Shown: positions 3,818 through 48,608 of the stretch, in pieces
How positions within the stretch are numbered: the first letter of the stretch is position 1
Layout of the letters: each line of letters opens with the position of its first letter
Source of the DNA: Acholoe squamosa
Taxonomy: Eukaryota > Annelida > Polychaeta > Phyllodocida > Polynoidae
Length of the DNA stretch: 64,000 nucleotides
NCBI GenBank assembly: GCA_949317995.1
Contig: OX439046.1
Location: 76,074,786 to 76,138,785 of the forward strand
Direction of reading: 5' to 3'
Position numbers and translations under genes: made by a program
The notes under the pieces: model-generated
Told to the model about the DNA's origin: nothing
Database searches by the model: none
The model's input: the letters and a program-made list of their open reading frames with translations, nothing else

Positions 3818-3851
3818 CCTACTTGAACCAAGATGGCCGCCAGTAGGTGAG

Positions 3852-7367: not shown

Positions 7368-7390
7368 TGGCCCATCGGCACTGTGACATC

Positions 7391-11330: not shown

Positions 11331-14300
11331 GCTATAATGATGATGAGATGAGATGAGTACATTAATAGAAAGGATATCATAGGTCTATTATCGTTGCTTA
11401 ATCATACAAAACAGTTTGGATAGACTTTTCTAACACTATTTTTGAATTTGTAAATATTATCAATAACTGTAAATTCTGGTTTTAACTGATTCCATCTTAT
11501 AATAGCTCTGTATAGGGCACTTCGTAAAACAATTGGTTTCAAACTATGTGGGACATTTAGTCTCCTACCCTGATGGAAACGTGTAGCAATAGCTCTTCTG
11601 TCCACAAAAGTCATATTTTGAGCTAACATAAAACCATAGGATAGTAAGTGTAGATCTCTTCTAACATATAGTTCCGTACAATTACTTCTTTCTTGTATCT
11701 GTTTGGTTGTCATAACAGGATTTTCTTCTAATTTAACCTTATATACCATTCTTAAGGCTCTATTCTGTAACATTTGCAAATCTCTGTTTTCTCCCCTATA
11801 GTCTCTATCCCAAACATAATCACAGTAGTCAAATATGGGTAATATCATAGGTTTAAAAACAGTCAATGAGGCCTCTTCATCAAGTAGCGCTCTCACTCTA
11901 CCCATTTGGAAAATCCTATGTCGTATATTTCGCATGGTATTTTCTCTATGTTTTACAAATTTCATCTCTGTATCCATTCTTAAGCCTAAGTAAACGAATT
12001 CTTTCACTTTTTCAAGGTTCACATTGTTCATAGAGAAACTAATATTATCATTTATGTTGGTGTTAAAGGACACTCATTTTGTTTTTTGCACATTGATAGT
12101 AAGGGTATTATTCAGGCACCATGATACAATCTTTTTAATAACTTGATTCATTTTAAATGGAGAGTCAACGGATACTACTGCGTCATCTGCATATAACGTA
12201 ATATCGCAGTCAACTGCTCTAGCTAAGGAGTTAATATATATAGAAAACAAAACTGGACCCAAAACTGAGCCCTGAGGAACCCCATACGTGATGTGTTTCA
12301 AGGATGAGACGATATTGTTTGCCAAGGTACATTGCAAGCGATCTGCTAAATAATTTTTAAAGAAATTACATGTGTTATAACTAAGACCTAAGGCCTGCAA
12401 TTTTCTAAGTAATTTAGGATGAGAAACTGTGTCAAAAGCTTTTTTGAAATCAATATATAGACAATAAGTTGGTTTATCAACTATATAATTGTTAATAATT
12501 GTCGCAAGATGCTCAGTGATAGCGGTCTGTGTAGAACGTCCCTTTCTATAGCCATGTTGAGTTGGGCACAATAAATTTTGATCTTCCATATAGCATTGTA
12601 GTCTTTTACAGACAATTCTCTCAAGTAATTTACCTGTAATAGGTAATAGACTAATAGGTCTAAGATCTTCAACATTCATAGAATTTGCTTTTTTAGGTAG
12701 AGGTATTACGGTAGCAATTTTCCAATCATCAGGGAAAGTGGCAGTAGCTAGGCATCTATTATATAGCGATCTGAAGATATCAGGAATAGCAAACATAGCA
12801 TCCTTAATAATAAAAGATTTGCAGTGTTCAATGGCGGATGGTTTCTTTATATCAATTGCTTTAACTAGCTTAATAAAGTCTATATATGACAGCTCAAACA
12901 GAAGATTAGTATTTTCTAAAATAGTACCGTATGGGAGAACTACATTGTCATTTCTATCGCCCGGTGGGAGTGCATTTGCTAGTGTTTCTCCAATACCAGT
13001 GAAAAAACTATTTATATATTCAGCGCAATTCTCAGGAGGGATTACTAAGTTCGTTGTACTATTTCTAAGTTTAATTAGAGAAGCACATGTTCTGTTAGGT
13101 AATACTTTCTTAATTGCTTCCCAATATTTTGCAGGATCATCTTTCCTGTGCTCTAATAAATTTGTCATCTCTTTTTTCTTATTATTAAAAATTTCTACTT
13201 GGACCCTATGTTTATAAAAATTGGCTGTTCTCCAGTCGTCTTCCTTCATTGTGTTCTTCGCTGTCCTATACAAACTATCTCTAACTTTCATCAGATCCAA
13301 TATATCTTCAGTCAGCCATATTGGGGTGTGCTCTGGTATAATAATCGTTCTAATAGGACACATGACATCTAGATAGTCCTTTATCACTTTCAGGATACTT
13401 CTCCATATATCATTTAGGTTTTCCAATAATAATATTTCATCCCAGTTATAGTTGACTAGAGTATTTTTTAGAGTTAGAAAATCATAATTCCTGTATGATC
13501 TAGCCTTAACCCTCTTCTTTTTAATTTTATGTCTCTCGCATTTGATAACCAGGTAAATAGGAGTGTGGTCAGAAATGTGATAATCTAGAGTACCATAAGC
13601 AGAGGCATTATGAACATTGGTATAAATATGGTCTAATAGTGTACCTGACTTAGGGCGAGTAACTACATTGATCAGCTGGAAAAGATTATTGTCAGTACAA
13701 AAATCATCAACAGAGGAGTCATTTACATCTTTTTTGTTAAAGAGGTTCACATTAAAATCGCCTATAATAATTAGTTTCCTATTTTTTGTTACTGTATCTT
13801 TTAATTCACCAAGTTTGGTATAGATTGCTTTGAGATCATTACTGTCAGGTGGTCTATAACATACAGACACCTTATATTTGACTACATTAATTTCGATATC
13901 CACACAGAGAATTTCATAGTTATCTGTTATGTAAGAAGAGTTTAAGTCAGGGCAAGCGATATAATGGTCTTTTAGATATAACATTAAACCACCCGCCGTC
14001 TTATCTCTAAGAGGAAATCTATCCAAGCGAACAAATTGATAGCCTGGTACATGTAGATCAGCATCCAATACAGATGGGGTGAGCCATGTTTCTACTATTC
14101 CAATTATATCTGCTCCAGTTACTAGCTTAAAAACATCCGTTCTCTTCTTATACATTGATCTAGTGTTAGTACAAATTATTTTCAGTCCCTTCATAGGGGT
14201 TAGTTCATGTAGGAAAATCATGTATTTTTAACAGAAATTAACCAGGTAGATGCAGTTGAGAATGAGGGTGAAAAGGAATGATACCTAATATGAGTAAAGC

Positions 14301-28722: not shown

Positions 28723-29085
28723 TTCATTGATTATATTCAAGGCGCCTTCTCCGTTTACACTACCAGAGGTTGACTTGTTCAAAAGAAGTACAAATTAAGG
28801 CTAAAAGCAAGTTACTGTCCTATAAAGCTAGCTTTATTCGTTTATCTTAACAGCAAAAAGTGTAATATTTCTCGTCAATAAAATTTATCAATCCATCACC
28901 ATGGATTTTTTTATCCCTCTCCCTCATATAACCCACACCTTCAATTTTTGGGGGGCAATACAAGCCAGATGAAATATGGATGAAATAAGCTTTGCTACTG
29001 TTATATATACAATTAATTAACCCCATATTAGCAGCACTCTGACTTGGCGCATAATTATTCAGCATGCCATGGAAGTAGTTTCCAG
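28723..29085. other. 3' flank of the Myb-like gene
   Basis: No frame or repeat. It contains AATAAA (28878-28883), which could serve as a polyadenylation signal, and ends at the TRIM target CCAG (29082-29085). Confidence 0.35.
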
Positions 29086-29338
29086 TGTAGGGGCCAGCTC
29101 TGGCTGTAAGTCCATGGCGGTAGGCCATCTGCCCCGTTCCGGTTGCACCAGCCCTCAGGGGCTGGTCAGCTAGTATAAGCTGCCCCCCTTGTGTATTATA
29201 CCGATCCAGATGTAGGTGGAAGGTAGAGAACGTCAGGTCTGGGGAAGTAGCTCAGAGGAAGAGCTTCCGCTTCGAAGTTGGAGGGTCCCGGGTTCGAGTC
29301 CCGGTTTCTCCAAAAGACGTTTTCCGCCGACCTCTACA
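29086..29338 (+). repeat. Left LTR of the TRIM
   Basis: 253 bp, TGTAG...CTACA ends, no difference from 29864-30116 by eye. It carries the tRNA-like unit at 29241-29312. Confidence 0.9.
29241..29312 (+). tRNA. tRNA-Ala-like gene inside the left TRIM LTR (anticodon CGA)
   Basis: 72 nt that fold as a full cloverleaf without CCA. The acceptor is GGGGAAG/TTTCTCC with a G3-U70 wobble, the alanine identity pair, and discriminator A73. The D arm is GCTC-AGAGGAA-GAGC. The anticodon arm is TCCGC/TTGGA with one mismatch and one wobble. The loop TTCGAAG places CGA as anticodon. The T arm is CCGGG-TTCGAGT-CCCGG. Internal Pol III promoter boxes are present: A box TAGCTCAGAGG and B box GGTTCGAGTCC. TTTT, a Pol III terminator, follows eight bases later (29320-29323), still within the LTR. 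The body resembles tRNA-Ala, while CGA would read serine UCG. Because it is part of a mobile LTR it should not be taken as an ordinary host tRNA. Confidence 0.7.
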
Positions 29339-29339
29339 C

Positions 29340-29353
29340 TGGTGGAGAAACCG
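29340..29353 (+). other. Primer-binding site of the TRIM
   Basis: TGGTGGAGAAACCG is the exact complement of a mature tRNA 3' end CGGTTTCTCCA-CCA. The tRNA-like genes in the LTRs end CGGTTTCTCCA, so all 14 bases match once CCA is added; the 15th is a mismatch and the 16th matches again. Confidence 0.8.
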
Positions 29354-29863
29354 AGTTGGTCCTGACCCGTGTGAGGGGGGACTACGAGAACTCGGTACCT
29401 GGGCTGGTATGACACAAATGCGATTCGATCTGCTAAGTACTGGGGGACTTGGAAACAGGTGGCACCCTCAGAGATTCCTGGGAACAGGAGTTGACTACGC
29501 TGAAGGTGACTCAGTACTAGTCCTGGGTGTCTGGTTCAGAGCCCTAGGTTGAATCTGATAGGGAGGAGTGTAGGGGCCAGCTCTGGCTGTAAGTCCATGG
29601 CGGTAGGCCATCTGCCCCGTTCCGGGTGTACCAGCCTAGTCACCTGGCACCTGGTGGTAGCTGCCCCTATGTGTGTCATACCAATCCAGGTGTAGGTGCC
29701 TGGAACGGTATAATACAGATACGCTTCGACCCTGGCAGTACTGTGTACTGGTAGGTCAACTGGGAAGTCAGGAGTGCCTCACACTGCTTGATAAAGCCCA
29801 ATCGATCTGGTTGGGAGGAATGCTTGGTGCTGGTTGGCCATGGTTGAAGCTGGTTGGGAGGAG

Positions 29864-30116
29864 TGTAGGGGCCAGCTCTGGCTGTAAGTCCATGGCGGTA
29901 GGCCATCTGCCCCGTTCCGGTTGCACCAGCCCTCAGGGGCTGGTCAGCTAGTATAAGCTGCCCCCCTTGTGTATTATACCGATCCAGATGTAGGTGGAAG
30001 GTAGAGAACGTCAGGTCTGGGGAAGTAGCTCAGAGGAAGAGCTTCCGCTTCGAAGTTGGAGGGTCCCGGGTTCGAGTCCCGGTTTCTCCAAAAGACGTTT
30101 TCCGCCGACCTCTACA
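29864..30116 (+). repeat. Right LTR of the TRIM
   Basis: Same as the left LTR by eye; preceded by the purine tract GGGAGGAG and followed by the duplicated CCAG. Confidence 0.9.
30019..30090 (+). tRNA. tRNA-Ala-like gene inside the right TRIM LTR (anticodon CGA)
   Basis: Same 72-nt sequence and fold as 29241-29312, followed by the same TTTT terminator inside the LTR. Confidence 0.7.
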
Positions 30117-30539
30117 CCAGTATAACCCGGGGTATAGACTTGAGAATTTTAGGTAGTTAACGTCTATAGATCCGACAACTCCCTTATAGGTCATCAGCAA
30201 ATATTATTATGTAAATATCTATCATCCACAGGAAACATGTTAGAATATTCAAAGATCAATTTTAAAACAAGGCTGAAATCGATTTCATAAATCACTTTTA
30301 ATTTTAAAATGAACCAGGACATGTATTTGAATTATTAAACAAGTAATTTTCATTTTTATTTTACATTATTCTACTTGTTTATCCTATCTAGACTAGATGG
30401 TGTCTTTTGTATGCAATTTTCAGTTTAGTTATGCACACAATGGGTTCTCATACTTAGAATTTAACCCATGAATTGGGTTTTTTTTTCAAGTAAACTCAGA
30501 ATTTGTTTTTTTTAATTCTAGATGCAATCATGGTGTGAA
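30117..30539. other. No gene; AT-rich spacer within Harbinger-12k
   Basis: Sits between the TRIM and the 3' end of the transposase gene. No frame or repeat is seen. Confidence 0.35.
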
Positions 30540-33636: not shown

Positions 33637-34390
33637 AGGGGGTGGGGATGTCCATGGCTCCTATACATTTCTGTAGTAAAGGCGTGGCAATGGGGAACGT
33701 CCACATACCTTACCCAGAAATGTAATTCAGATCAAATAGGAAAGTAGGAAAGAAACCTAGGCATACCTCAAAACTATGCAGTGTTTTGGTAGTGTGTTTA
33801 CTGGGAAGAGCCCTTGTCTAAATGACCAAGATTGGCTGTGCTATTCTAAGTAAAACGATCACTGCAGACTGAAATGATCAGCTGGGCCAGGACCATAATG
33901 AGCAAAAAACGGTCATGATAACTCTCTAAGGTGTGATCATTTCTAGGGTCAGCATAGTTCTTTCATATCCTGGATGTTGTGAATAGGACCAAAACAATTA
34001 TACTTTTCTATGACAACAACATGATCGTTTGGGATCAGAATTTATGCACCATTTTCGTTTTTACTAATGAATTGCCTTCCTGTCTGCCCAGACCACTGAG
34101 AGACTTTTCAGCACAGCATAGCATGGGGCAGTTTGGTACTTAGATGGCGTGTTTGGCACCACCACTGGGCCCTGCCTGGCAGGGAATTGAACTAGTTCCT
34201 ATGGGCCCGATTGGCCATCAGAAAATATTCTAGGGATATTGGCTAAGGCACTATAGTCATGTTGTATATCGTTGAAAAGATAAAAGTTTCATAAACGTCT
34301 TAAGGTGGCTGGCGGGGATAGAACAAAAGTAATTAAGTTTTCGCCATATTATCACCAGAATCCCAAAATGATATGAACTATTCATATATG
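33637..34390. other. No gene seen between the MITE and Gypsy-2
   Basis: No frame, tandem repeat or terminal repeat that I would defend. Confidence 0.35.
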
Positions 34391-34808
34391 TGTAGTGGTT
34401 CGTCTCGTTAAGTTAGATTAAATCATAACGAAGAGAGAGAAAAGTTTCCGGGTAGGCAACCGAGCTTTTATTTCAGAGCTTGCGTTACATACGATCACAG
34501 CCTCAGAGGACTACATGCTGCTAGTGCATTCGGTTACCCTTTCGGGTAACAACCTGGTTGAGCAGTGGGTAAACCACTACTGAGGAACCTAGGGCTAGGA
34601 CCAGCCTTATATAGGGGAAAAGCCCGCGAAACTCAGACCGGCCACGTGACGTGTGGCGGACGAGTGGTAGGCCCCCTGGTGTAGTGGATACGAACCCAGA
34701 GGCAGGTGCTGCCACCTGCCATCCGGATTCCCCCACCACACCCGAAGGACCTAGGTCTGAGTCTCACGGGTGCATGAACGTTAAAGTGTAAAATACCATA
34801 CCCCTACA
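34391..34808 (-). repeat. 3' LTR of Gypsy-2
   Basis: TGTAGTGG...CCCTACA. In element sense it has a TATATAA promoter box (34607-34613) and downstream an AATAAA signal (34467-34472), giving a U3-R-U5 layout. A 72-codon frame inside appears in both LTRs and looks accidental. Confidence 0.92.
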
Positions 34809-36119
34809 CTGCCCCCCTTAGACAATAACTTGGGGGTAATTAAACCGCAGTGTATTAATAACCTAGTAAGTGATTGTTTACAATACTAAAAAGGGGTATT
34901 AATTACACTTGCTCGATGTGAAATAGGCTATAGTATAAGACTATCCTATTTCTGAAAAATTATACAATAATAGCATCGAGTGTCGTTCATGTTATTTCCA
35001 TCACTAGCTTATAACAACCATAAATGATAAATATACAATTATCACAGATTTATAGTAACGTTTTGACAACAGTAGGGTCCTGAAAAGGACCGGTGGTTGT
35101 TAACAATGATCGTATTATGGTTATTGAACCCGGAAAAAAAAATTTTCGACTTTTTAAATTAACAGCTCTGTCTACTTTACAGAGTGAATTAAATATTAAT
35201 GATCAGATATGGACAATTAATCTGATACTATATGAACACAATTAGGTATTAACCTGAGTAATACAATACTAAGTTTAGAGAAATCCGTTGGACCTTCTCT
35301 TATTTTATAGAAAAATATTTATACTTTTGAGACGCAGCTCAGTTTATACCTTAGTGTTTTATATTTACAAGTTACAGAAGAATTATAGTCTCTTAATATA
35401 TTGAGACCAGGAATGACCTATATAGACAGTTATAGGTCTAGGATTACCTTAAATAACTTTTAGGATTCGCAGATCCAGTATATTTATAGGTACCCTTATA
35501 TAATAATATATCTTTATAAAAGATATTATATAGTTATAAATACAATTTTACATACAATATAATAATATCAACAAAGTTACTTGTTTTCATGATTGGAGGA
35601 TGTAACAGGAGTCGGATGCTGCTGATGGCTTGGTATGGGCGAGCTGAACCCTGATGCCTGAAGTGCTATAGTAAAACTTGTTGGTGGGTGTAGCTAAACC
35701 CTGATGCCTGTAGTGCTAGCTAACTGGAGGTTATAGTAGATCCAGTTGTAGACTGTTGATGGACTCTATGGGCGTAGCTAAACCCTGATGCCTGTAGTGC
35801 TAGCTCACAAATAGTAGTGGTGTAGTAGTAAATCCGGTTTGTAGTTCAAAAGTCCATATTAGTGTAAATTGTCCATGATTTTATAATAGGCACAGTCATT
35901 ACATTGTGGCACAGTACAATTATGGTGTTTACAGCATTCGTACTCCTCCTCCAGAGTGGCTTGTTTGTTTTCTCCTTCTGTTTTCAGTTTCCGGATTAGG
36001 GTACAGTTTGGTACCCGAATCAATACGGGTTGGATAAAAAAATGGTTTCTTATCCAACAATGCATGGGTAATAGAACCCCGGGACACACAATTATGTCCG
36101 ATCTTCATGCAACAGTTTT
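34809..36119. other. 3' non-coding region of Gypsy-2 with three short direct repeats
   Basis: About 1.3 kb between the third ORF and the 3' LTR. A 30-bp block (GTAGCTAAACCCTGATGCCT plus GTAGTGCTAG) occurs three times, near 35637, 35689 and 35770. The rest is AT-rich with no frame of note. The purine tract lies at its left end. Confidence 0.7.
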
Positions 36120-39100
36120 TTACTGTTCCATGTTCTCCTCGGGTGGCTGGTTTGGACCCGGTTGTTGAGCCAGTGGCTGAACAGGGGGGTTCATACCAGT
36201 TCCATCCGTAGGTGCCAATGCGGGGACAGCAGGTGTAAGTTTCACCTTTTGGCGTGCTTCGAACAGCTTCAAAGCATGCTCAGGTGTACCGTCCCAGTTA
36301 TCCATGATAACTCCGAAGACCTTGAAGAACTTTTGCTGGTTCTTCATGTTCGTTGCTCGTTCTAGGTCGAGCATCTGAGAAGCTGTTTCCTTCTCGGATA
36401 GGGCCTCCTGCCGCAGATTAGCAGCTTCCTGCTTATCTTTGGCAACATCCGCTTTGATCTGAGTCGAGATTCGGTTGATCTCTGACTTCTGGATCGCGTC
36501 AATACACTGGAGAGTGCTCGACACGGTCCGACGATACATGTCCAGGTGGAGGTTTTCCAGATGGTGCTGTAGCGTCTCAAATTGTTTGCTCTGGATATTG
36601 CAAGACAATTTGTCCTCCTTCTTGAAGAAGGTCTCCACTGTCTGGATCAGCTTAGGCCGATGAACCACAGCACCAGGTGGGGGTACCTGACCCTGAGGCT
36701 TCGGCTGTGCTCCAGACCCGCTCGCAGTGACAGCTACCTGCGTGTGCGAAGAAGCAACCGCAGTAGTAACCGCACTAGCAGTGGTCGAAGAAGGGCCTTG
36801 AGTTGGTAATCCCTGAACCAGGGGCAACCGTGACAATTCCCTTCTAAGGTCTTTGGCCGTCAACAATGGTGCGGGTGGACGTTGTCTCACCACAGCACTC
36901 ATTGTAGGTCGGGGAGCTTGACCTCCTACTGTCGGCAGTTCCTGCTTGACCCTCCCGTACTGATCAAAGATTTGCATCTCTGGTCCGGGTGGGCCCATAG
37001 CAGGGTACTGCTTCGGGTCTTTGACATTCAAAGGCGCGTGTTTCCGGGCGGACTGGCCACTCGGTCCACTGACACCAAAGAATGTCGGGTTCTGTGCACC
37101 TCGTGGAGTTGGTGCTCGCCCATAATGGGAAGGAGTTCCAGTAGGAGATGGAAGATGTGGCTTCTTCCTTCCCCCATTTGTCTGTCTCTCCAGCGCCTCC
37201 AGTGGTGACCTGGCTCGGCTTGGAGATTCAGACGCCTGTCTCTTCCTATCTGCTACAGAGGGTCCCTGGCGGTAATCCCTGCGGCTTCGGACCTGTTCTC
37301 CGGATGGAGTTACATAAGCCCCACCACGACGGCGGGCCTTGTTGCTTCTCCATTCGTTTAACAGATCGTACTCCTCCTGAGCGTACTCTAGTTTGCCGGA
37401 CCCGGGAGTCTGGGCAAACCGAGCCTTTAGTTTCTGGTTAGTACCAGGAACCGTAGGCGCAAACTGCTTCGTACTCGGTGTGAGGGAAGCCAACTTCTCT
37501 GCATTGAGGCCCCTAAGGTTGCCATAGAGTTCGGAGTGAATTTTCATCACCCGATCTATGGCTGCCTCCAGGCCCTCTCCATGCGAAGTCACATAGTGCC
37601 GGACCATGTCTCCGCGTCGGGGGGTGACACATCCTGTGCATTTAGCACATTTCTTGCCAACCTCTCGGTCGCAGACATATTCCGGCCTCTGGTGCATATG
37701 AACCTCCACGAGATGACGAAGGAACGCGTCTTTCTCGATGAAGAATTCAACCTCACCCTCACTTTGAGTACAACGTTGGAAGGGACAATCCTTACGACCC
37801 TCCCCGTAGTACTCATCTAGAGCAAACTTGAGCTTGCCCTTCTGGTCATAATTGTACAGACCATTGGGCGAATTCTTAACGAATTCCCAATAGATCCAGT
37901 ACATATTGGCCGGCTTTCTATCAGAGAGCTTCTTGCGAAGCCACTCCTCCATATCTTCCTGCCTCTCACAGGTGATCCGAGGGGGCAGTCTCCATACGGA
38001 TTTACTCCCCTTCAGGTGTCCCCTGTGTAGAGGAATGAAGTCGGCAAAGTTGCTATTGGCGTTAGCCCAGATAGCAGCCTCTTGCTCGTCAGTCGGAGTG
38101 ACATCCACAACTGGGTCAACCGGCTCCTCTCCCTCCGGGTCGGATGGTACATCCACAGGTTGCACAACGGGTTGTTGACCCGCGAGGACCTGGGCTGCAG
38201 CATCTTGAGCGTCTCCACTCAAATCGGCCATTACGTCGTGTAGCTTGACGATTGGCACACCGAGCTCAACTTTTACGGTTGGGACAGCCGGTTCAGCTTC
38301 TGTATTATCAGCTTGAACGTCTACCTCGATAGGTTCAGGTTTGCATTGGTCAACCTTCTTCTTATTCCTCCTGCGGGATCTGCCGTTAGTAGAAGTGCCA
38401 GGCTCGGATGCGTCCGTCTCGTTGCCGGAGACATCCGAAGCCTTAGCGCCCTTCTTATTGGCCGAGCGTGGAGACACCCGACGGGTTCGGGTACTGTCGT
38501 CCACACTCGTGCTGGTAGAGGGTTCGGTTCCTGACCGCTTCCCTTTACCCTTACCTTTGGTGGGGGTTGTTTTACCCTTTCCACCAGCTGCTTTCTCCTT
38601 TACTTGCTCAGTCTTCGTAGGGGTAGACTGAGCAGTTTTAAGGGAAACATCTGCATCAGGTAGGGCCTTCTCAGGTACTACTGCTGCGCCTCCCAAGGTG
38701 GGAGCTTCAGCAGGAGACATGAGACGGTCCATCCGATCGGCCATCTTGGCTGTTACTTGCACGGGTGCGGGTCCGGGTACTAACTCCGGATGCGCCAGTG
38801 CATACTGTCTCTCCAATAGACGTACTACGAGGTCTTGTATTACCCCGAGTCTGTCTAGTGGAGACACACCAATACGGGCCTCTTCTGCCTCAATGGTTTG
38901 AGACGTAATAGGGACCCCTGGACAGTAATCCACAACAGCGTTACCTGCTGCTTCATACTCATCCGCTGTGCTTAACAGTAGGATCTGGTCTCTGTCTATG
39001 TATCTAGAGACCTCATCTGCCTTGACACCGGTGTAACCCGTTTTGTCAGACACATAGGAAGGCCTATAAGAGGTATTCCTTCGGAAAGCCATTTCTGCGT

Positions 39101-39833
39101 CCCAGACGGCTTTACGAAACCATAAGTGGACTACCAATCCTTTGGCCATCTGATGGTAATCCATCAACCAGGACTCCGGAAAGGTATTAGCCCACTGCGG
39201 ATGAGCACATTCCCAGATTGCGTTGACAACACGCTCGTCAACCTCTCTGGGCGTCCCATAACAGGTGGGTATCAGCATTTCCTCGGAAATTGCTAACATC
39301 CGTCCGTCATATGGACCGGCTACATCATGCCATTCGGGACTGTCTGGGAAGGGCAGCTCTAGGTGCATTGGCCTGTCAACCGGAGAAGCAGGTCCCAAAG
39401 CACCGAATGAGGTACTCCCACCAAGACGGGGCGGCAGTTGAGGGGGAGGTGGCATCAGAGCCCTGTCAAGAGACTGGGCTCCTGCCGGTTCTCCACTCAA
39501 ACCTTCGGATGGAGGGGCTACATAAGGCTCACCTACATCAATTTGTTGTTGAACGCCTCGGCGTTCAGGACTAACTTGTCTGGAGTTGTCGGATGCGTCG
39601 TAGAACGATTCTACGTCGCTATCGTCTACTCCAGAGAAGTACTGATCAACATTCATTTGTTGATCCATTTGATCACAATCAGCATCGTATTGCTGATCGT
39701 CGTATGTATAAGTGGGACTCTTGGGAGAACCACTTCCATACTCTGGCGGGGTGCTGGCACCGGCACCGCCGCCAAGACGGACGGCCTCTTCTGCCATCGA
39801 CAGAAGTGGCTGTTCGGGGATAAAATATCCCAA
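36120..39833 (-). CDS. Gypsy-2 third ORF: 1237-codon protein with zinc-finger-like clusters, family unknown
   Basis: Lies where env would be but has no signal peptide or membrane segment. Residues 1-160 are acidic, Pro/Gly-rich and probably disordered. Residues 165-360 look globular (NAIWECAHPQWANTFPESWL, QMAKGLVVHLWFRKAVWDAE). A long Lys/Ser-rich linker with RSRRRNKKK near 483 could be a nuclear signal. A second globular part (WRLPPRITCERQEDMEEWL, MYWIYWEFVKNSPNGLYNY) leads into two Cys/His clusters from about 682: CPFQRC...HLVEVH and CAKCTGC...HYVTSH, zinc-finger-like. The last 150 residues are helical (QFETLQHHLENLHLDMYRRT). The layout suggests a nuclear or nucleic-acid-binding accessory protein, but I recognise no family. 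Its long open frame in a young element argues that it is used. Confidence 0.8.
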   Translation of the reverse strand: MGYFIPEQPLLSMAEEAVRLGGGAGASTPPEYGSGSPKSPTYTYDDQQYDADCDQMDQQMNVDQYFSGVDDSDVESFYDASDNSRQVSPERRGVQQQIDVGEPYVAPPSEGLSGEPAGAQSLDRALMPPPPQLPPRLGGSTSFGALGPASPVDRPMHLELPFPDSPEWHDVAGPYDGRMLAISEEMLIPTCYGTPREVDERVVNAIWECAHPQWANTFPESWLMDYHQMAKGLVVHLWFRKAVWDAEMAFRRNTSYRPSYVSDKTGYTGVKADEVSRYIDRDQILLLSTADEYEAAGNAVVDYCPGVPITSQTIEAEEARIGVSPLDRLGVIQDLVVRLLERQYALAHPELVPGPAPVQVTAKMADRMDRLMSPAEAPTLGGAAVVPEKALPDADVSLKTAQSTPTKTEQVKEKAAGGKGKTTPTKGKGKGKRSGTEPSTSTSVDDSTRTRRVSPRSANKKGAKASDVSGNETDASEPGTSTNGRSRRRNKKKVDQCKPEPIEVDVQADNTEAEPAVPTVKVELGVPIVKLHDVMADLSGDAQDAAAQVLAGQQPVVQPVDVPSDPEGEEPVDPVVDVTPTDEQEAAIWANANSNFADFIPLHRGHLKGSKSVWRLPPRITCERQEDMEEWLRKKLSDRKPANMYWIYWEFVKNSPNGLYNYDQKGKLKFALDEYYGEGRKDCPFQRCTQSEGEVEFFIEKDAFLRHLVEVHMHQRPEYVCDREVGKKCAKCTGCVTPRRGDMVRHYVTSHGEGLEAAIDRVMKIHSELYGNLRGLNAEKLASLTPSTKQFAPTVPGTNQKLKARFAQTPGSGKLEYAQEEYDLLNEWRSNKARRRGGAYVTPSGEQVRSRRDYRQGPSVADRKRQASESPSRARSPLEALERQTNGGRKKPHLPSPTGTPSHYGRAPTPRGAQNPTFFGVSGPSGQSARKHAPLNVKDPKQYPAMGPPGPEMQIFDQYGRVKQELPTVGGQAPRPTMSAVVRQRPPAPLLTAKDLRRELSRLPLVQGLPTQGPSSTTASAVTTAVASSHTQVAVTASGSGAQPKPQGQVPPPGAVVHRPKLIQTVETFFKKEDKLSCNIQSKQFETLQHHLENLHLDMYRRTVSSTLQCIDAIQKSEINRISTQIKADVAKDKQEAANLRQEALSEKETASQMLDLERATNMKNQQKFFKVFGVIMDNWDGTPEHALKLFEARQKVKLTPAVPALAPTDGTGMNPPVQPLAQQPGPNQPPEENMEQ

Positions 39834-40351
39834 TCCACCGGATAAGCAGTGAGTACTGCTTACCCAGTGAAAGGCGGGTGCCTTTTAACGAGGGCACACC
39901 TCGGAATATGGCTGTCACGGGCTATCAGACTCCAACAAGAGCAAGACCACCCTCGGCCACGTCTTCTTCCTTCGCAGGAATAAGACAATATGGCGGGATA
40001 CTCGAACTTGAATCGCTGCGCATGATCAAACCGGCGCCTCACGTGACCATTCGAAAATGGGTCAACAACTTTCCCGCGTGCCCTTAATTAGGTCACGCGC
40101 CCTTACATAAAAACAATACAATACCCGATCGGTCGTCCGTCCGTACTCAGGGTTCGACTATGACAATTCGCTAGGTATTCTGGAGTTTATGGATAGCATA
40201 AGCATATCCACCGGATTATCCGTCCAAAACCATGGGTTCATTGTCATAGGACCTTTTCCAGAGACTCTTGACCGGCTCAAATATACATTGAACTAGGTTA
40301 CAACATATAACAGTACACAGTACAGGACAACACACTCGTTGTGTTAACAGG
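39834..40351. other. Gap between Gypsy-2 pol and third ORF
   Basis: About 520 bp with no frame. It presumably holds the signal that lets the third ORF be translated (a splice acceptor or internal promoter); I could not identify one. Confidence 0.4.
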
Positions 40352-43300
40352 CTAGGTTACGGCAGTCTGTAGCAACCTTGGACTGCGTCTAAGAGGTTTT
40401 GAGGCCTCTTTTATTGACCTGGTATCCATAAGAGCCTTTTCCAAGGTCTTCTTAGCCTTAGAGGGACCTTTCCTCTTATTTTTACCTGCGCCTGCCGAGA
40501 CTTTTTGTATCTTCCCCTGCTTTCCGGATGTTACGACAGGGGGCACCACCCTCTTCGGGTCTGCAACCTTCCGTGGCCGCCCGGGTCCTCGCTTTCGGGT
40601 CGGTACCACTTCGAGTTGCTTAACACGACTCTGTTCCATTACTTCCAATAGACCATCGCCGTACATTTCGGTGGAGGTATCCCTCCCCCTCCATGGGCGT
40701 AGTCTCGCTACATTTGACTTGTAACATTTACCAAGCTGTGATTTAATAATCACTGTGCAATCACTAATAACCTGAGTTATAGTGAAAGGTCCATCCCAAT
40801 TACTGGCTAATTTCAGGTTAGCTAGAGGTTGGTGTAGACGCAGTACTCTATCCCCTAGATTAAAAAATCTAGCTTTTAGACCTGTGTCATAGCCAACTTT
40901 CTGCCAACGCGCAGTTTTCTGCAACTCGTCTCTAACCCTCTCATAGGCTTGTTTGAAATTATCCCGTAGGGATTCTACAAACATCACCTGGCAAGGGGCT
41001 TCCGGATTCATTCTTATTACGCCGAACACCAAATCGGCTGGCATAATCAAATCCTCTCCAAAAACGAGGAGATTAGGAGAACAGTTTGTGCTCGAATGCA
41101 CAGTGCCATTATAGGCATGTACCACGAATTCACATTGTTCATCCCAATCATCCATCTGCTCATTTACCAGAGACTTCAATACTTGGATCAAAGTCCTATT
41201 GAATCTCTCTACTTGTCCATCGCTCTGTGGTCTATAGGGATTAGTTCTTGTCTTGCAGATCGCCAGACAATTACACATCTCCTGCCACAGACTAGACTCA
41301 AATTCTCTGCCTTGGTCACTATGTAACATGAGTGGGACACCTAGGTGCAGCACCCACCCTTTTACAAAGGCCATAGCACAAGTAACAGCCTTATGATCCG
41401 GTAAAGGGAACACTCGGGTGTACTTGGTATAATAATCAGACACGACCATCATACACGTGTTGCCACTAGGAGTGGGGGGAATCCCACTAATAATGTCAAC
41501 AGCTATTCTAGCAAACCTTACACCAAACAGTTCCTGGGATAATGGCAGCTTGCCTAACCCGGGTCCTGGTTTGTTCTTACAGCACTCGGGACAGGTCTCC
41601 ACCCATCGGGTGAGATCTGTACTCATGCCGGGCCAATAGTATCGTCTGGTCAGACGTTCTAGAGACCTTTTCTTTCCAAAGTGCCCACTAGTTCTATGTC
41701 CATGACAGAAATACATAATATCTCGTCGCATAGCACTAGGTATGACAACTTGCAAGGTTTTGTTCCTATTAGAATGGTTCTTCCATCGAAACAGAATACC
41801 ATCCCGGACTTTTAGCTCGGCCCATTGAGCTAAGAATCGTCTCATCTCTCTGTTCTCCAATGACACTACGGGTCTTGGGGGACAGATACCCTGATTAAGG
41901 AATTTAATCAAACGTGATGTGACTGCATCAGACTTCTGGAACTGCCTGATGGTCTCCAAGGACCAATTCAAGACATGTTCCGGATGGGTTTCGAATGGAA
42001 CTCGAACCCCTGCCAACACAGCATTGTGTGCTCCACAATCAGTGCACTCAGCATTTGCACATTTCCTCACTGGGATTCTAGACAAAGCATCTGCATTCAA
42101 ATGCTTTGCCCCGGCTCGGTGTTCAATCTGGCTGTGATTTAGACCGAATTCGGATAGGTGCGCTAACCAGCGACCTATCATCCCCTCTGCATCTTTGAAG
42201 TTCAATAACCATCTGAGGGAAGAGTGATCAGTCCGTAGAGTGAAATCACTCCCCCACAAAAAGTGCTTGAACTTCTTCGTATAGACCACCACAGCCAACA
42301 ACTCACGTTTAGTGGTACAATAGTTTCTTTGAGATTTACTCAACGTGTTACTAGCGAAGGCTATAGGAACTTCGACCCCATCCTGGACCTGAGAAAGGGC
42401 GGCTCCTATGCTTTCATTACTAGCATCAGTATCTAGAATGAAATGATCATTCTCCGTGGGGTATCTCAACACAGGTGTGATAGCAAACAAATCCTTTATT
42501 TTCATAAAGGCCTCGTCTTGCTCGGGTCCCCAAGGGAATCGTTCCTTTCTGATCCCGGGTGTCCAGTGGGACAAACTCTGGATAGGAAAGGCAACCCTTG
42601 AATATCCTGGGATAAAGTCCCGGTAGTAGGAACAGAATCCGAGGAAGGACCTAACTTCTTTCGCATTCGTGGGTGCTTGCCAATTTGACACGGCATCCAG
42701 TTTCTCCGGATCGGCTTTAATCCCTTCATTCGAGATTATTCGCCCCAAGTAATTAATAGATCTTTTGAAAAGATCGCACTTCTTGGGTTTCAGCTTCAAA
42801 CCATTAGTTATGATCCTTTCCAGGACCATACCTAAATTTTCCAAGCATTCTTCGTATGTCTTTCCAAAGACAATCACATCGTCTAGATAGACGAGACATT
42901 TCTTCCATAAAAGGTCACTTAATAAAGTTTCCATCATGGCTTCAAATGTCGCCGGTGCATTGCACAATCCAAACGGCATCACATTATACTGGAATAATCC
43001 AATATGACTGGAAAAGGCCGTCTTCTCCATATCTTTCGGATGCATACCCACTTGCCAGTACCCGGATTGTAAGTCTAGAGAGCAATACCATTGCTTACCT
43101 CCAAGGGAGTCTATAGTCTCATCGATCCGTGGTAAGGGATATGAATTCTTCTTGGTCATACCATTCAATTTCCGGTAATCTATGCAGAAACGGATGCTAC
43201 CATCTTTCTTGGTCACCATGCACACAGGGCTAGACCAAGGACTGGTTGATGGAATTATTACATCCTGTTCAAGCATTTTAGCTATCTCCTCCTCAGCTAC

Positions 43301-44545
43301 CTTCTTTTTGGCTAGTGGGAGTCTTCTATAAGGAATCTTAAAAGGTTCATTCTCACCAGTGTCAATCGTATGCAGTACTTTATCGGTACGCCCCAATTGT
43401 TCACTCGGTGCTGCAAAAGCTTTACGGTACTTGTACAACAAGTCAGTTAGAGCTTCACGTTGTTCATCACTTTCTACATGGCTTTCGGCTACTAGAGTGT
43501 CTAGTTCCGGGCTCCTTTCGGGTGAGGAAGGGGCTCCGGGTGCCGAAACATGTTTACAGTCTTCTATCAATTCGGATAAGACAACCGATCCAAGGATCGT
43601 ATCCTTCTGTACATAGACAGTCTTGTTACCGGTATTGGATATAGGAACCACCGTCCAAGCAGCGTTAGCTACTAGAACATCAGCGGATTCCAATCCGATA
43701 CTTGACAACATGGCCATGTCTGGCTCTACAACTCCAGTTTTTCCTGAAAACTGTCTGTCCGCTCGACATAAGACATCACAGGCTGTGCCTGGTGGTATCT
43801 TAACAGTCTGGGCTACACTGGCTACACTGCTTACTTGCCTAAGTACACATTGTACTTCGAGATGGTACGGGTCTCTCACTTCCAATATTCCCCTCTGGGA
43901 ATCTAACCTTGCTCCATATAATGCAGCAAAATCCAGACCGAGTATACCATCATCCGCGATGTTCGCCACAGTAGGGGTAAGGATGAAGTCCTTATCTTCC
44001 TGTAGACTGAACCTCATACATGTTCTACCGAACGTTTGTATCATGCTACCGTCGGCCGTACGAGCATTTCCTTCCGTTGTGAAAGTTTCATGATTCGTAG
44101 GCAAAAGATCGTAGAATCTCTTAGCAATACAGGAGTGGCTAGCACCCGTATCGACAAGAAACTCAGCGGATCTACCACTCACAGATACAACTGCGTACCA
44201 CCTCCTACCTTTCAAGTAGGTAGGACTACTTGCATACTTAGCAAGTTCCGTCTTAGCGCCGAGGTCAAATCCACATCCCTTTAAGAATTCGAGACAAGGA
44301 TGACCCGGGGGGAACTGGGCACACCCCACCCTGGCCAACTCATTGGCCGCTCCCTCTGGACTGATATCGGGTTTCCCCTCTGTGTTCTTCTGCCGGTTCT
44401 TGACACCTGGTGTACTATCAGTCTCCCCAGCCTCATGAGTAAGGAACTGATCAGGCTCCTTAGCTTCACTGCTGGGCGAAATCGCTAGAGGATTCTTGCC
44501 AGTACCGCAAGCTGCGATAGGCTGGCAGTCATGGCAATCACTCAC
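40352..44545 (-). CDS. pol: Gypsy-2 Pol polyprotein (PR-RT-RH-IN) with an AT-hook-like tail
   Basis: 1397 codons. Protease FLVDTGASHSC lies near residue 130. Reverse transcriptase has RFCIDYRKLN, PFGLCNAPATF and CLVYLDDVIVFG near 550. RNase H has LDTDASNESIGAALSQ near 704. The integrase zinc motif (HRTSGHFGKK...CPECCK) spans about 947-990. The catalytic core has AVDIISGI (first Asp), HSDQGREFE (second Asp) and DGQVERFNR (Glu, about 1107). A GPF-type module follows (WDGPFTITQV). Near 1316 the tail has RKRGPGRPRKV, an AT-hook-like motif, rather than a chromodomain. Gag ends 39 bases upstream in another frame, so expression needs recoding or reinitiation, known in the family. Confidence 0.93.
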   Translation of the reverse strand: MSDCHDCQPIAACGTGKNPLAISPSSEAKEPDQFLTHEAGETDSTPGVKNRQKNTEGKPDISPEGAANELARVGCAQFPPGHPCLEFLKGCGFDLGAKTELAKYASSPTYLKGRRWYAVVSVSGRSAEFLVDTGASHSCIAKRFYDLLPTNHETFTTEGNARTADGSMIQTFGRTCMRFSLQEDKDFILTPTVANIADDGILGLDFAALYGARLDSQRGILEVRDPYHLEVQCVLRQVSSVASVAQTVKIPPGTACDVLCRADRQFSGKTGVVEPDMAMLSSIGLESADVLVANAAWTVVPISNTGNKTVYVQKDTILGSVVLSELIEDCKHVSAPGAPSSPERSPELDTLVAESHVESDEQREALTDLLYKYRKAFAAPSEQLGRTDKVLHTIDTGENEPFKIPYRRLPLAKKKVAEEEIAKMLEQDVIIPSTSPWSSPVCMVTKKDGSIRFCIDYRKLNGMTKKNSYPLPRIDETIDSLGGKQWYCSLDLQSGYWQVGMHPKDMEKTAFSSHIGLFQYNVMPFGLCNAPATFEAMMETLLSDLLWKKCLVYLDDVIVFGKTYEECLENLGMVLERIITNGLKLKPKKCDLFKRSINYLGRIISNEGIKADPEKLDAVSNWQAPTNAKEVRSFLGFCSYYRDFIPGYSRVAFPIQSLSHWTPGIRKERFPWGPEQDEAFMKIKDLFAITPVLRYPTENDHFILDTDASNESIGAALSQVQDGVEVPIAFASNTLSKSQRNYCTTKRELLAVVVYTKKFKHFLWGSDFTLRTDHSSLRWLLNFKDAEGMIGRWLAHLSEFGLNHSQIEHRAGAKHLNADALSRIPVRKCANAECTDCGAHNAVLAGVRVPFETHPEHVLNWSLETIRQFQKSDAVTSRLIKFLNQGICPPRPVVSLENREMRRFLAQWAELKVRDGILFRWKNHSNRNKTLQVVIPSAMRRDIMYFCHGHRTSGHFGKKRSLERLTRRYYWPGMSTDLTRWVETCPECCKNKPGPGLGKLPLSQELFGVRFARIAVDIISGIPPTPSGNTCMMVVSDYYTKYTRVFPLPDHKAVTCAMAFVKGWVLHLGVPLMLHSDQGREFESSLWQEMCNCLAICKTRTNPYRPQSDGQVERFNRTLIQVLKSLVNEQMDDWDEQCEFVVHAYNGTVHSSTNCSPNLLVFGEDLIMPADLVFGVIRMNPEAPCQVMFVESLRDNFKQAYERVRDELQKTARWQKVGYDTGLKARFFNLGDRVLRLHQPLANLKLASNWDGPFTITQVISDCTVIIKSQLGKCYKSNVARLRPWRGRDTSTEMYGDGLLEVMEQSRVKQLEVVPTRKRGPGRPRKVADPKRVVPPVVTSGKQGKIQKVSAGAGKNKRKGPSKAKKTLEKALMDTRSIKEASKPLRRSPRLLQTAVT

Positions 44546-44583
44546 TCTGGGGGTAATCCGGTTGCCATTGTGGACACCCCCTC

Positions 44584-47325
44584 TCAGTTTTCCTTCTTCA
44601 CTGAGTCCTCCTTACCCGGATTGCTCCGGTAACGAGTGTTTCTATAAACTGGCTTATCTGCCTCACACTCGGCAGCATAATGCCCAGTTTCCTGACATCG
44701 GAAGCATGTCACAACAGTCCTATCAGGCTTAGGCCTCCTAAGATTTTCAGTAATCTTCTTTACCAAATTGTTAACCAGGTCCTCTGATAAAGAAGGACCC
44801 GTCGTGGGTTTGGTATCGGGTTGAGTCACAGGAGGTTTAGAAGTGATCACTTTCTCCTTGACGTAACCCGGTTTCTTTCCCCAGTTCCGGTTGTACCGGG
44901 GGTTCCCTTGGCCAATGGCCCCAACGTTTTCATCTTCGTCAGGTTCCCCTGATTCGGATGAATCGGTTTCGGGTATTCCCTCCGGGATTATCATTGCTGA
45001 CATCCGTTGGGGTACCTTCCCGGCAAAGATACGGGCCTTTCGATCATAATGATCTAGGGACTGGAACAAATCTGTCAAAGAGGCATCATTCTTCCAAGCT
45101 TCACAGGCTACTGTCCTGTGTTCTTGATTCCGCAATCCTTCAATGAATTGTTTAAACATCTCATCTAGGAAGCATTCATCATCTAGTCTCCATTGAGGTC
45201 TGGCTTTATGCAACAGTCGTTGACATTCTAAGCCGAACACTTTGGCAGACTCCTTGGGCTTCTGTGTTCTTTTAGTGAACGTCAGCCAAGGGTCTTCTCC
45301 AACTATATTCCCATATAAATATGAAGCAATCTCTATGAGTTCATCATACTTCATATGGGCTGAGAGTCCTGTTATTTGAGAATCTCTCCATTGTTCCACG
45401 GCTCCTTTTCCGTCGCCTTCCTTTAACCAGCATACTAAATAAGGCAGAGCTTCCGCTTTACCCCATCCATTGCAGTTAAAGACATCCGCGCAGCCTTGAT
45501 ACTCCTCCTTCCAAGGGTTCTTGGCATTAAAGGGGGTAGGTATCTTAGCTACTCTACGAGCCGGATTCGTGGATCCAGTAAGGGTTAAACCCTTACTCCA
45601 TTCCATGATCTCCGTATCGTCCAGACCTTGATTGTAACAATCAACACCTAAGTTAGCAATCGCTGCATTAGAATCATGCAGCGCTTGTAACCCTGGAGAA
45701 AGAGATACTCGGCGACTGAGTCTCTTTTTCCTTGGAGGATTCGTACCATAAGTACTTCCAAAGCCTCCGGATGGTGGTCCTCCTCCACCTCCTGATCCCC
45801 CTGCTCCGTATGGAGGCACCTGTGAAAAGGTGTATCCACTGGTTTGGGGAGCCGGCCCTGGACCATTGGTGGGTTGTGTATTTCCACCAAAGCTAAAGAA
45901 ACCACTATTGGGATTAGTGTTTCCTCCTGTTCCATACGACTGATTTCCATTATTGAAACCAGTCCCACTGGCAGAGGGTCTGCTCCTGGAACGATCGCTT
46001 GAGGGTCCGGATCCTTGATCACATCCGGATTGCCCCCCAGCTGTACTGGAACCTCCGGGTGCTCGTCCGGTTGTTCCTCCGGACGTGTTCCGGGTGTTAC
46101 CATTGGACGGATTCGTTCCTGTTTGGGACTGATTCCATCCATACTGGGCATACGGGCCATTTGGTCCCCCTAAAGGTGACTGTTGTGGCCATCCGCCGTC
46201 AAAGGTGGAGCTTCCTGCCGAGCGGCTTTGTTTAGCTCCACTCGCAGAATTATCCCCTTTATTTCCCGTACCTAGACCAAGAGGTATAGAGGTATTATCT
46301 GTAAATCTAACCTGATGACTCTTTACTCCTTCATAACGAGGTACAGTTGTCTCTGTTACCCCGTCATTGCCCCTCAAAGAGAACATCTGGTTACTTGTCG
46401 TGTTTAGGGCAATTCCTGAAACAGTGAAGTCTGATTCAAGAGTGCCTACTGCACGACCAGTATCTTCTAGATACTTTGACATCTGGATAGCTTTAGCCTC
46501 CAGTTCGGAATAATCATCCATCATTTTAGTCTGTTTAACAGCCAAATCTGTGGATTCGCGTATCAATTGATCTTTGAGTTTTTCATGCTCATCGGTCTGT
46601 TTTTGGTACGTTTCCCGAGCATCTTTGAAGGCTGATTCTATTTTCTTCAGCTCTTCTTGATACTTGCCGTAGGCCGATTGAGTTGAATTTAACTCTTGTT
46701 TAGTTCTATTCAACTCATCATACGAGGCTCTGTATTCCAGATCCGCCGTATATAGTGCATCACGATACTGTTCGTGCTGGAGTTGAAAATCTTGCTTTTC
46801 TTTCTCCATCTGATCCAACAACAATTGTTGTTGGCGTCTACAACTCTGATCGTAATCGAGACGTTCCGATATCAACTGTTTGTTTTCAGTCAGAATCTTG
46901 TCTCGGGTTCCGGTCAGTGTAATAAGATCCTTCTGGATCTTCTCGTATTCAGCTCTCATGTCTTCAAGCTCGTCCATTTTGTTCTTTTCGAATCCACATT
47001 TTTGGTGTTTAATTCGAGAACTGTATGGAGTTTCAAACATACCTGCACTAGGCTTTGGTACCTCAAATGGTAATTTACCAAATTGAGCAGTACTTTTATG
47101 CATTGGTGCAGGTTTCGAAGTACCTCCTGGCATGAATAAGGAGTCTCCAAATTCATCCAGTTCATGATGTAAGTTTCTTCTTACATCTTCTAACCCATCA
47201 GGGTAGTGTTCTAGTGGATCCCTCCACTCCGTACCTTGGGGTGGTGACTTGATTTCACCATCCTCCATCGGGGAGTCTAGCTCACGATTTGAGCCATTTC
47301 CCCTAACTGGGCTCAGCTCAGTCAT
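44584..47325 (-). CDS. gag: Gypsy-2 Gag with long coiled coil and one CCHC knuckle
   Basis: 913 codons. Residues about 110-290 form a long coiled coil (QIQKDL-type heptads, e.g. YQKQTDEHEKLKDQLIREST). A Gly/Ser/Asn-rich linker follows. The capsid-like retrotransposon gag domain lies in the second half (VFNCNGWGKAEALPYLVCWL, EIASYLYGNIVGEDPWLTFT). A single zinc knuckle CFRCQETGHYAAEC sits near residue 875, for RNA packaging. The C-terminus is short and basic. Gag is unusually long because of the N-terminal coiled coil. Pol follows in a different frame. Confidence 0.9.
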   Translation of the reverse strand: MTELSPVRGNGSNRELDSPMEDGEIKSPPQGTEWRDPLEHYPDGLEDVRRNLHHELDEFGDSLFMPGGTSKPAPMHKSTAQFGKLPFEVPKPSAGMFETPYSSRIKHQKCGFEKNKMDELEDMRAEYEKIQKDLITLTGTRDKILTENKQLISERLDYDQSCRRQQQLLLDQMEKEKQDFQLQHEQYRDALYTADLEYRASYDELNRTKQELNSTQSAYGKYQEELKKIESAFKDARETYQKQTDEHEKLKDQLIRESTDLAVKQTKMMDDYSELEAKAIQMSKYLEDTGRAVGTLESDFTVSGIALNTTSNQMFSLRGNDGVTETTVPRYEGVKSHQVRFTDNTSIPLGLGTGNKGDNSASGAKQSRSAGSSTFDGGWPQQSPLGGPNGPYAQYGWNQSQTGTNPSNGNTRNTSGGTTGRAPGGSSTAGGQSGCDQGSGPSSDRSRSRPSASGTGFNNGNQSYGTGGNTNPNSGFFSFGGNTQPTNGPGPAPQTSGYTFSQVPPYGAGGSGGGGGPPSGGFGSTYGTNPPRKKRLSRRVSLSPGLQALHDSNAAIANLGVDCYNQGLDDTEIMEWSKGLTLTGSTNPARRVAKIPTPFNAKNPWKEEYQGCADVFNCNGWGKAEALPYLVCWLKEGDGKGAVEQWRDSQITGLSAHMKYDELIEIASYLYGNIVGEDPWLTFTKRTQKPKESAKVFGLECQRLLHKARPQWRLDDECFLDEMFKQFIEGLRNQEHRTVACEAWKNDASLTDLFQSLDHYDRKARIFAGKVPQRMSAMIIPEGIPETDSSESGEPDEDENVGAIGQGNPRYNRNWGKKPGYVKEKVITSKPPVTQPDTKPTTGPSLSEDLVNNLVKKITENLRRPKPDRTVVTCFRCQETGHYAAECEADKPVYRNTRYRSNPGKEDSVKKEN

Positions 47326-47347
47326 TTCTGACTGCGCTTACCCGAAG

Positions 47348-47367
47348 ACCAACTGGTCACGGCACCA
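47348..47367 (-). other. Primer-binding site of Gypsy-2 (tRNA-His type)
   Basis: In element sense, one base after the LTR end CTACA, the sequence TGGTGCCGTGAC is complementary to the tRNA-His 3' end GTCACGGCA-CCA. The match ends after 12 bases. Confidence 0.65.
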
Positions 47368-47368
47368 G

Positions 47369-47786
47369 TGTAGTGGTTCGTCTCGTTAAGTTAGATTAAA
47401 TCATAACGAAGAGAGAGAAAAGTTTCCGGGTAGGCAACCGAGCTTTTATTTCAGAGCTTGCGTTACATACGATCACAGCCTCAGAGGACTACATGCTGCT
47501 AGTGCATTCGGTTACCCTTTCGGGTAACAACCTGGTTGAGCAGTGGGTAAACCACTACTGAGGAACCTAGGGCTAGGACCAGCCTTATATAGGGGAAAAG
47601 CCCGCGAAACTCAGACCGGCCACGTGACGTGTGGCGGACGAGTGGTAGGCCCCCTGGTGTAGTGGATACGAACCCAGAGGCAGGTGCTGCCACCTGCCAT
47701 CCGGATTCCCCCACCACACCCGAAGGACCTAGGTCTGAGTCTCACGGGTGCATGAACGTTAAAGTGTAAAATACCATACCCCTACA
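47369..47786 (-). repeat. 5' LTR of Gypsy-2
   Basis: Same 418 bp as 34391-34808, no difference seen by eye. Confidence 0.92.
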
Positions 47787-48608
47787 CTTGCAATAAAAAT
47801 GTGGGGGTCCCAGGCATATTTATGTGATACAGCACTTTTAGTATCATATAGGATTATACAGCAATATGTCATATAAATCCACAGATTCCTATCCAAAAGT
47901 AATTACATTTTCTTATAACTTCCTCAGTACTTAGATTATACACATATCTTTGCAGTGAGTGTAGCTCTGACATATGGTCCCAGCCATATTTCTAATCTTT
48001 TGGATGATTGAACATTTTTCTTAAGGGAAATGGCTAGAACAGGTACATCTAGATTATATGGCACATTCCTACCCCAACTGCCTCTGTGGTGCATGTGTTA
48101 CATCTCTGCCTTGTACACAAGAGATCTGGAGCCCATTCAGAATTTTGCATATTTCGTTCTCATAATTTCTATAGAGTGCAGGAGACCCCTGGTGTTCAAA
48201 TGGTGAACTAACAATCCCGGCCAGCCACCTTAATATGAATAAATGGGATTTAATTCTGTTTTTCCTTTTGATAAACTGAAATATTGGGCCCATAAGATAC
48301 TGTAGCCAAGAATAGCTTCTTGCTGTAGCTATGGGCTCGGGTGGCCCATGACTGAAAAATTTAGTGTCTTCCTCTGCGGTTACCTAACAGCGTCAGGTTT
48401 AAGTCCACCGTGCTGCCGACAGTGCCATGCCACCCAGTCATGGCTGAGTGAAGATAGCTCTGTTTATTCTTGGATTGCAGAGTAAAGGTGTCTATGGAAA
48501 TAACTGCTCGTTAATCCAAACGATATAGGATGTCAAAACCAATCCAATATGTTTAATTATTGCATTGATGTTCTTTCACATGGAATTCCTGATAATGATT
48601 ACAGGTAT
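47787..48608. other. No gene seen to the right of Gypsy-2
   Basis: No coding frame. Two weak tRNA-like stretches (about 48085-48150 and a B-box-like GGTTTAAGTCC near 48397) hint at old SINE remnants but do not fold convincingly. Confidence 0.3.

Follow-up and report, generated by a model that had tools for sequence, protein, structure and literature searches.

As a rule, LTR elements and retroviruses take their primer, a tRNA, from the host, with a few self-primed exceptions. Among LTR elements, Tf1 needs no host tRNA for priming and uses the 5′ end of its own mRNA. In a man-made case, Lund et al. in 1997 reportedly complemented an MLV vector with an impaired primer-binding site (PBS) by supplying an engineered tRNA-like primer, to go by the title of their paper. 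The locus described here differs from both: its candidate primer is a tRNA gene rather than an mRNA 5′ end, and it is borne by the LTR rather than man-made and supplied in trans.

The closest described elements are TRIMs. Those with tRNA-like LTRs were named Helenus (TRIMp3) by Kojima in 2024 and found in six animal phyla, in fungi and in a plant (PMC10886601). Only a few Helenus families, bivalve and fungal, are predicted to encode a tRNA; the bivalve families have primers for Lys, His, Ile, Pro, Glu and Ser, with Ala not listed; tandem arrays were reported for one family, LTR-11_DR; and complementarity between LTR tRNA and PBS was sought but none was found (PMC10886601). Cassandra of plants carries 5S rRNA in its LTR (PMC10886601, introduction). 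The biv-TRIMs of bivalves are described as having TDRs of 202–218 bp, internal regions of 77–80 bp, a polypurine tract (PPT) GGGGAGA in most, and no unambiguous PBS (PMC6934838).

How does the present locus compare? As in Helenus, the LTR contains a sequence derived from a tRNA, A and B boxes included, and the element has a PBS and a PPT. It shares a 4-bp target site duplication (TSD) with the animal Helenus families (CCAG in the window; 18/28 and 21/29 two-LTR loci of subfamilies A and B, respectively) and tandem copies with LTR-11_DR. By the features tested it is a Helenus-like TRIM. It resembles Cassandra in being a TRIM with a sequence derived from a Pol III gene in its LTR, but that LTR holds a tRNA, and Rfam gives no 5S rRNA match at or above the gathering score in the 64-kb window. 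Like the biv-TRIMs, it is a TRIM of animals that occurs in solo and in tandem form; unlike them, it has a clear PBS and LTR/internal lengths of 253/525 or 220/267 bp.

The original prediction read the locus as a TRIM whose two LTRs each bear a tRNA gene, and that reading stands. Its further claim, that such a TRIM was not known from animals, was wrong, and the idea of a first animal TRIM with a tRNA is rejected by the description of Helenus in six animal phyla (PMC10886601). What sets the element apart from the Helenus survey is instead that its LTR tRNA and PBS are complementary at 14/14 positions, and that the acceptor, D and T stems of the tRNA are fully paired. As read from the DNA, this fit of the LTR tRNA to its own PBS is a new property, sought but not seen in the founding survey, and we found no other report of an LTR-encoded tRNA fitting its own PBS in titles and abstracts of the open-licence PMC literature.

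The element and its tRNA

The window (the whole stretch of 64,000 nucleotides analysed) contains at 29086–30116, on the plus strand, a TRIM of 1031 bp, slightly above the usual 1000. It is flanked by the TSD CCAG (29082–29085 and 30117–30120). The two LTRs (29086–29338 and 29864–30116) have TG...CA termini and are, as predicted, 253 bp long and identical. The PBS TGGTGGAGAAACCG (29340–29353) follows the 5′ LTR after a spacer of 1 nt, and the PPT TTGGGAGGAG (29854–29863) ends at 29863, directly 5′ of the 3′ LTR. Among the frames of the window, none that runs for 150 aa or more from stop to stop overlaps 29086–30116. The element thus has the short non-coding internal region, two LTRs, PBS and PPT of a TRIM, and the original assignment to this class, made from the TG...CA ends, the CCAG duplication, the primer site and the purine tract, was right.

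Each LTR contains a 72-nt tRNA (29241–29312 and 30019–30090). Both match Rfam RF00005 at 50.1 bits (gathering score 29; E = 9.2e-8 in the 64-kb window), they are the only matches in the window at or above the gathering score, and ARAGORN detects both, with the label tRNA-Ser(CGA). The box sequences TAGCTCAGAGG (29248–29258) and GGTTCGAGTCC (29291–29301) agree with the consensus of the A box and the B box. The predicted Pol III terminator TTTT lies at 29320–29323 in the 5′ LTR and at 30098–30101 in the 3′ LTR. The predicted tRNA, with its boxes and its terminator inside the LTR, was therefore confirmed.

In the window copy the acceptor stem is paired at 7/7 positions (two of them G–U), the D stem at 4/4, the T stem at 5/5 and the anticodon stem at 4/5; in subfamily B, described below, a second broken pair of the anticodon stem is seen by eye. 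There is no long variable arm. G3–U70 and A73 are alanine identity marks, and we call the tRNA alanine-type. It is identical at 53/72 positions to the main host tRNA-Ala TGC and CGC genes. The minimum-energy fold of the free LTR tRNA is not the cloverleaf, and its stability is unremarkable (z = −1.07). An origin of the LTR tRNA by read-through from a primer was rejected by reasoning alone: the expected orientation is that of the PBS, and the actual one is opposite.

Copies in the genome

The 1.48 Gb genome was searched with the window element. This yielded 65 matches of what we call subfamily A, at least 19 of them full length at 99–100% identity, with 40 of 3440 candidates scored. Thirty loci (L001–L030) were sampled; L022 and L029 overlap, so that some LTRs were read twice. 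Two or more full LTRs were present in 28 of the 30. An exact 4-bp TSD of its own flanks 18 of these 28 (one, TATA in L025, falls within a TA repeat), and the LTRs are identical in 25. All 59 full LTRs, some read twice through the L022/L029 overlap, contain a full-length tRNA: 41 window-like, 16 with a change in the D loop and two with a change in the anticodon loop.

Beside one A copy, in L019, we found a divergent subfamily B (707 bp; LTR 220, internal region 267). Its own search gave 44 matches, at least 40 of which, at 99–100%, differ by 2 bp or less from full length (40/2613 candidates scored). Two or more LTRs occur in 29/30 loci, with an exact TSD in 21/29 and identical LTRs in 27/29; the tRNA is full length in 60/60 LTRs, and 59 of these tRNAs are identical. 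Since identical LTRs at 25/28 and 27/29 loci indicate recent spread, both subfamilies have evidently been mobile recently. The original prediction hinged on further copies with independent target duplications and on a tRNA unit kept in them at full length; both were found, in A as in B.

With double reads removed, the family provides 127 distinct LTR tRNAs of five sequence types with one common 3′ end; the search pattern behind this set prescribes the first 15 and the last 6 bases. Subfamilies A and B agree at 69/72 positions of the tRNA, at 101/155 of U3 and at 21/26 of the stretch of 26 nt 3′ of the tRNA; judged by these alignments, the tRNA is better kept than the rest of the LTR. The family matters for tRNA annotation: in the first 64 loci ARAGORN makes 137 tRNA calls (overlapping loci counted twice), all from the TRIM family and all tRNA-Ser.

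Tandem copies with common LTRs occur, with three full LTRs in L025 and in L032. A purine tract lies directly 5′ of the first full LTR in L017, L022, L028 and L029. Exact-pattern scans of viral contigs and of genome contigs, together with a phage search, gave no matches.

The primer-binding site

To which tRNA does the PBS correspond? TGGTGGAGAAACCG is the reverse complement of CGGTTTCTCCA, the 3′ end of the LTR tRNA, followed by CCA. The match is 14/14 and ends at 14 nt. CCA is not encoded 3′ of the LTR tRNA, where the DNA reads AAAGACG, and the PBS thus fits the matured tRNA and not the LTR DNA. TGG is a feature that PBSs generally share. When random sequences of equal composition were tried 200,000 times, no anchored match exceeded 10 nt; but any PBS should match one tRNA or another, so this null is not the right one, and the element has to be measured against host tRNA-Ala.

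The same PBS occurs at 64 of the 68 distinct CTCTACAnTGG sites in L001–L064 (30 in A, 33 in B, one unassigned; double reads removed). The other four comprise two sites in target flanks (L014, L046), the PBS of L030, which matches at 13/14 yet is like the LTR tRNA at the base facing tRNA position 66, and the PBS of L031, which carries a deletion and happens to read C at this discriminating base, as for host AGC. At about 2064 in L030 an LTR is followed by the 13-nt PBS and then by unrelated sequence; at about 1230 in L031 lies a copy with a deletion that starts inside the PBS. Pairing in cis between PBS and tRNA within the template RNA was considered and rejected, the expected number of pairs being 0.0 in five folds.

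We propose that this recently mobile, protein-less TRIM may well encode, as the alanine-type tRNA of its LTR, its own primer for reverse transcription. We put the probability of this reading at roughly one half.

Comparison with host alanine tRNAs

Would a host tRNA serve as well? Host tRNA-Ala genes were collected with generic tRNA-Ala queries (40/1455 and 40/179 candidates scored), and the counts that follow cover the tRNA-Ala genes, and this isotype only, in the stretches fetched (L065–L080). Of 52 distinct genes detected there by a sequence pattern, 22 AGC genes match the TRIM PBS at 13/14, 26 TGC or CGC genes at 12/14 and three at 11/14, while one AGC variant matches at 14/14. As partners of the PBS, the LTR tRNA and the main host tRNA-Ala-AGC differ in a single base, at tRNA position 66. 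The predicted duplex with the PBS is −26.5 kcal/mol for the LTR tRNA, −22.9 for host tRNA-Ala AGC and −20.6 for TGC/CGC. The acceptor type of the host TGC/CGC genes is also that of the human tRNA-Ala-CGC 3′ end (PMC12301416) and of fly tRNA-Ala fragment primers (PMC10094720).

The host genes lie in large tRNA-Ala arrays with single-base variants, one on C15 (~5.09–5.14 Mb; TGC and CGC together with Leu-CAG) and an AGC array on C12 (~51.45 Mb). The single-base variants in the arrays include the AGC gene that matches at 14/14.

If a host tRNA were the primer, how should the discriminating base behave? Ty1 is said, in the title of one paper, not to inherit the sequence of its primer. Retroviral PBSs do inherit it (PMC4549124). 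Where the PBS inherits the primer sequence, priming by host AGC should revert the discriminating base to C. The case for a self-encoded primer turns chiefly on the constancy of a PBS base unlike that of host AGC, and we regard this comparison of sequences as moderate but not decisive evidence.

The strongest rival is that the element is an ordinary Helenus, in which the tRNA is a Pol III promoter only and a host tRNA-Ala-AGC primes with one mismatch, or a rare variant without any. The LTR tRNA and the PBS would then be alike because both go back to tRNA-Ala. The margin of a single base keeps this alternative alive: 22 of the 52 host genes are AGC genes that fit at 13/14, and since one variant fits at 14/14 and the main AGC is one base off, a host tRNA could prime. 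Because A and B are related, their common tRNA and PBS are not independent evidence. Further points that count against a self-encoded primer are the end of the match at 14 nt, the lack of a cloverleaf in the best fold of the free tRNA, and the mostly paired first bases of the PBS in most leader folds. The survey of Kojima shows promoter-like conservation and no self-complementarity (PMC10886601), and a tRNA with a broken pair in its anticodon stem is probably not maintained for decoding. Against this, captured tRNA and primer would be of the same isotype only by chance, and the sole base departing from host AGC would have to depart toward the LTR tRNA. Copying from host AGC should revert that base, yet the LTR-type base stands at 64/68 sites and in L030 as well. 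The acceptor stem, needless for a promoter, is paired at 7/7. A promoter-only tRNA with a host primer is accordingly a live contender, at odds clearly below even.

Transcription and priming

With an A box, a B box and a terminator, use of the LTRs by Pol III is plausible. TTTT follows the tRNA after 6 nt in 124 of the 127 distinct LTR tRNAs and after 7 nt in two, and is absent in one. In the window element TTTT occurs at 29320, 7 nt past the 5′ LTR tRNA, and at 30098, and nowhere else. The lack of a further TTTT in the window copy (A) and in the L019 copy (B) is not significant (chance P = 0.18 and 0.37) and was rejected as evidence. At the TTTT 7 nt past the 5′ LTR tRNA many Pol III transcripts should terminate as pre-tRNA, so that a full-length Pol III template RNA would need read-through or another promoter. 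A TATA-driven Pol II start was rejected, since TATAA is present in the U3 of subfamily A and missing from that of B.

How might an LTR-encoded primer work? Pol III would start at the internal promoter of the LTR tRNA. Transcripts that stop at the TTTT 6–7 nt downstream would be pre-tRNAs, to be trimmed, provided with CCA and used as primer. Those that read on as far as the terminator in the 3′ LTR (861 nt in A, 569 nt in B) would be template RNA, with the tRNA region as its terminal repeat. Reverse transcriptase and integrase would come in trans from a Gypsy-type element. Since the primer can serve as template for the PBS of each new copy, the PBS would keep recording the tRNA that was used. 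More tentatively, with odds somewhat under even, we suggest that such a TRIM would be freed from the host primer pool, one Pol III promoter giving either primer or template and the PBS being continually rewritten to the element's own tRNA.

If the proposal of a self-encoded primer is true, an element with its own primer gene would loosen the dependence on host tRNAs; primer, PBS and template could co-evolve within one unit; and the kept acceptor and T arms of a tRNA embedded in an LTR would be explained.

Might the main function of the LTR tRNA instead lie in translation, or be that of a tRNA-like RNA, its alanine identity and CGA anticodon placing alanine at serine UCG codons? The stems and the identity bases agree with such a function, as does the size of the family (3440 and 2613 candidates at first look, 40 scored in each case). 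But the anticodon stem has a broken pair, and by eye another in B; such a tRNA, if expressed, would likely be harmful at this dose; and the match to the PBS would go unexplained. We consider a role in translation very unlikely.

A slimmer chance still attaches to a blocking function, in which 3′ fragments of the LTR tRNA would obstruct a partner element at its PBS and would not act as primer. Fragments from tRNA 3′ ends are reported to act on endogenous retroviruses by exploiting the need of these for a tRNA primer (PMC7472051). An element that blocks itself is not expected to spread, whereas the identical LTRs of 25/28 and 27/29 loci speak for recent spread. That the locus is a product of chance or assembly, a tRNA cluster or segmental repeat that mimics a TRIM, would agree with the tandem copies with common LTRs (L025; L017, L022/L029, L028) but is contradicted by the own 4-bp TSDs of 18/28 and 21/29 two-LTR loci, and its probability is negligible.

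Internal repeat and U3 stem

Besides the complementarity of the PBS to the LTR's own tRNA, one further feature goes beyond the original prediction: the internal region of A holds a second, decayed unit that includes part of an LTR. In order, this decayed tandem consists of unit A (29394–29568), which ends in the purine tract GGGAGGAG, a partial inner LTR (29569–29698; U3 positions 1 to ~131, without tRNA, U5 or PBS) and unit B (29695–29863), which again ends in a purine tract. The alignment of unit A with unit B scores 76; the maximum in 300 shuffles was 54.

In each unit an internal arm can pair over 18 bp with an arm in the next U3. In the window element arm b′ (29399–29416) pairs with arm b of the inner partial LTR (29672–29689), and arm a′ (29700–29717) with arm a of the 3′ LTR (29970–29987), whose copy in the 5′ LTR lies at 29192–29209; subfamily B in L019 provides the third case. 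The pairing is kept in all three units compared, each with one unpaired position, and four pairs are changed on both sides (A–T/G–C, T–A/C–G, C–G/T–A and G–C/A–T). In A the pairing energies are −23.3 and −27.0 kcal/mol for the matched arms, against −16.5 and −17.0 kcal/mol for the crossed ones. We conclude that the stem is a predicted, conserved RNA structure of the TRIM family. It would suit an RNA spanning the internal region and the U3 of the 3′ LTR, such as a transcript from the 5′ LTR tRNA.

The 5′ leader, taken from 29185, folds more stably than shuffled sequences (z = −2.72; 2/200 as good). In the predicted leader folds PBS bases 7–10 are mostly unpaired, and the first 3–6 PBS bases are mostly paired in 4/5 folds, those starting at 29200 or 29205.

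Neighbouring elements

The window contains a Gypsy-like element on the minus strand (34390–47788) with identical 421-bp end repeats and long open frames at 40352–44611, 44584–47337 and 36120–39884. Its identical LTRs mark it as apparently recent. As a partner of the TRIM it was rejected, its PBS TGGTGCCGTGACC, read by eye, not being alanine-type. A second Gypsy-like element (1586–9448, minus strand) has long gag-like and pol-like frames, assigned by eye; within it lies a plus-strand retroelement frame (2067–3284), RNase-H-like by eye. Frames of a non-LTR retrotransposon occupy 11402–14227 on the minus strand, and relatives of 12074–14227, the nearest 53–59% identical, have endonuclease and reverse-transcriptase domains. 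Direct repeats at 60176–60470 and 60815–61039 have spacings of ~62 and 130 bp and are 93–97% alike.
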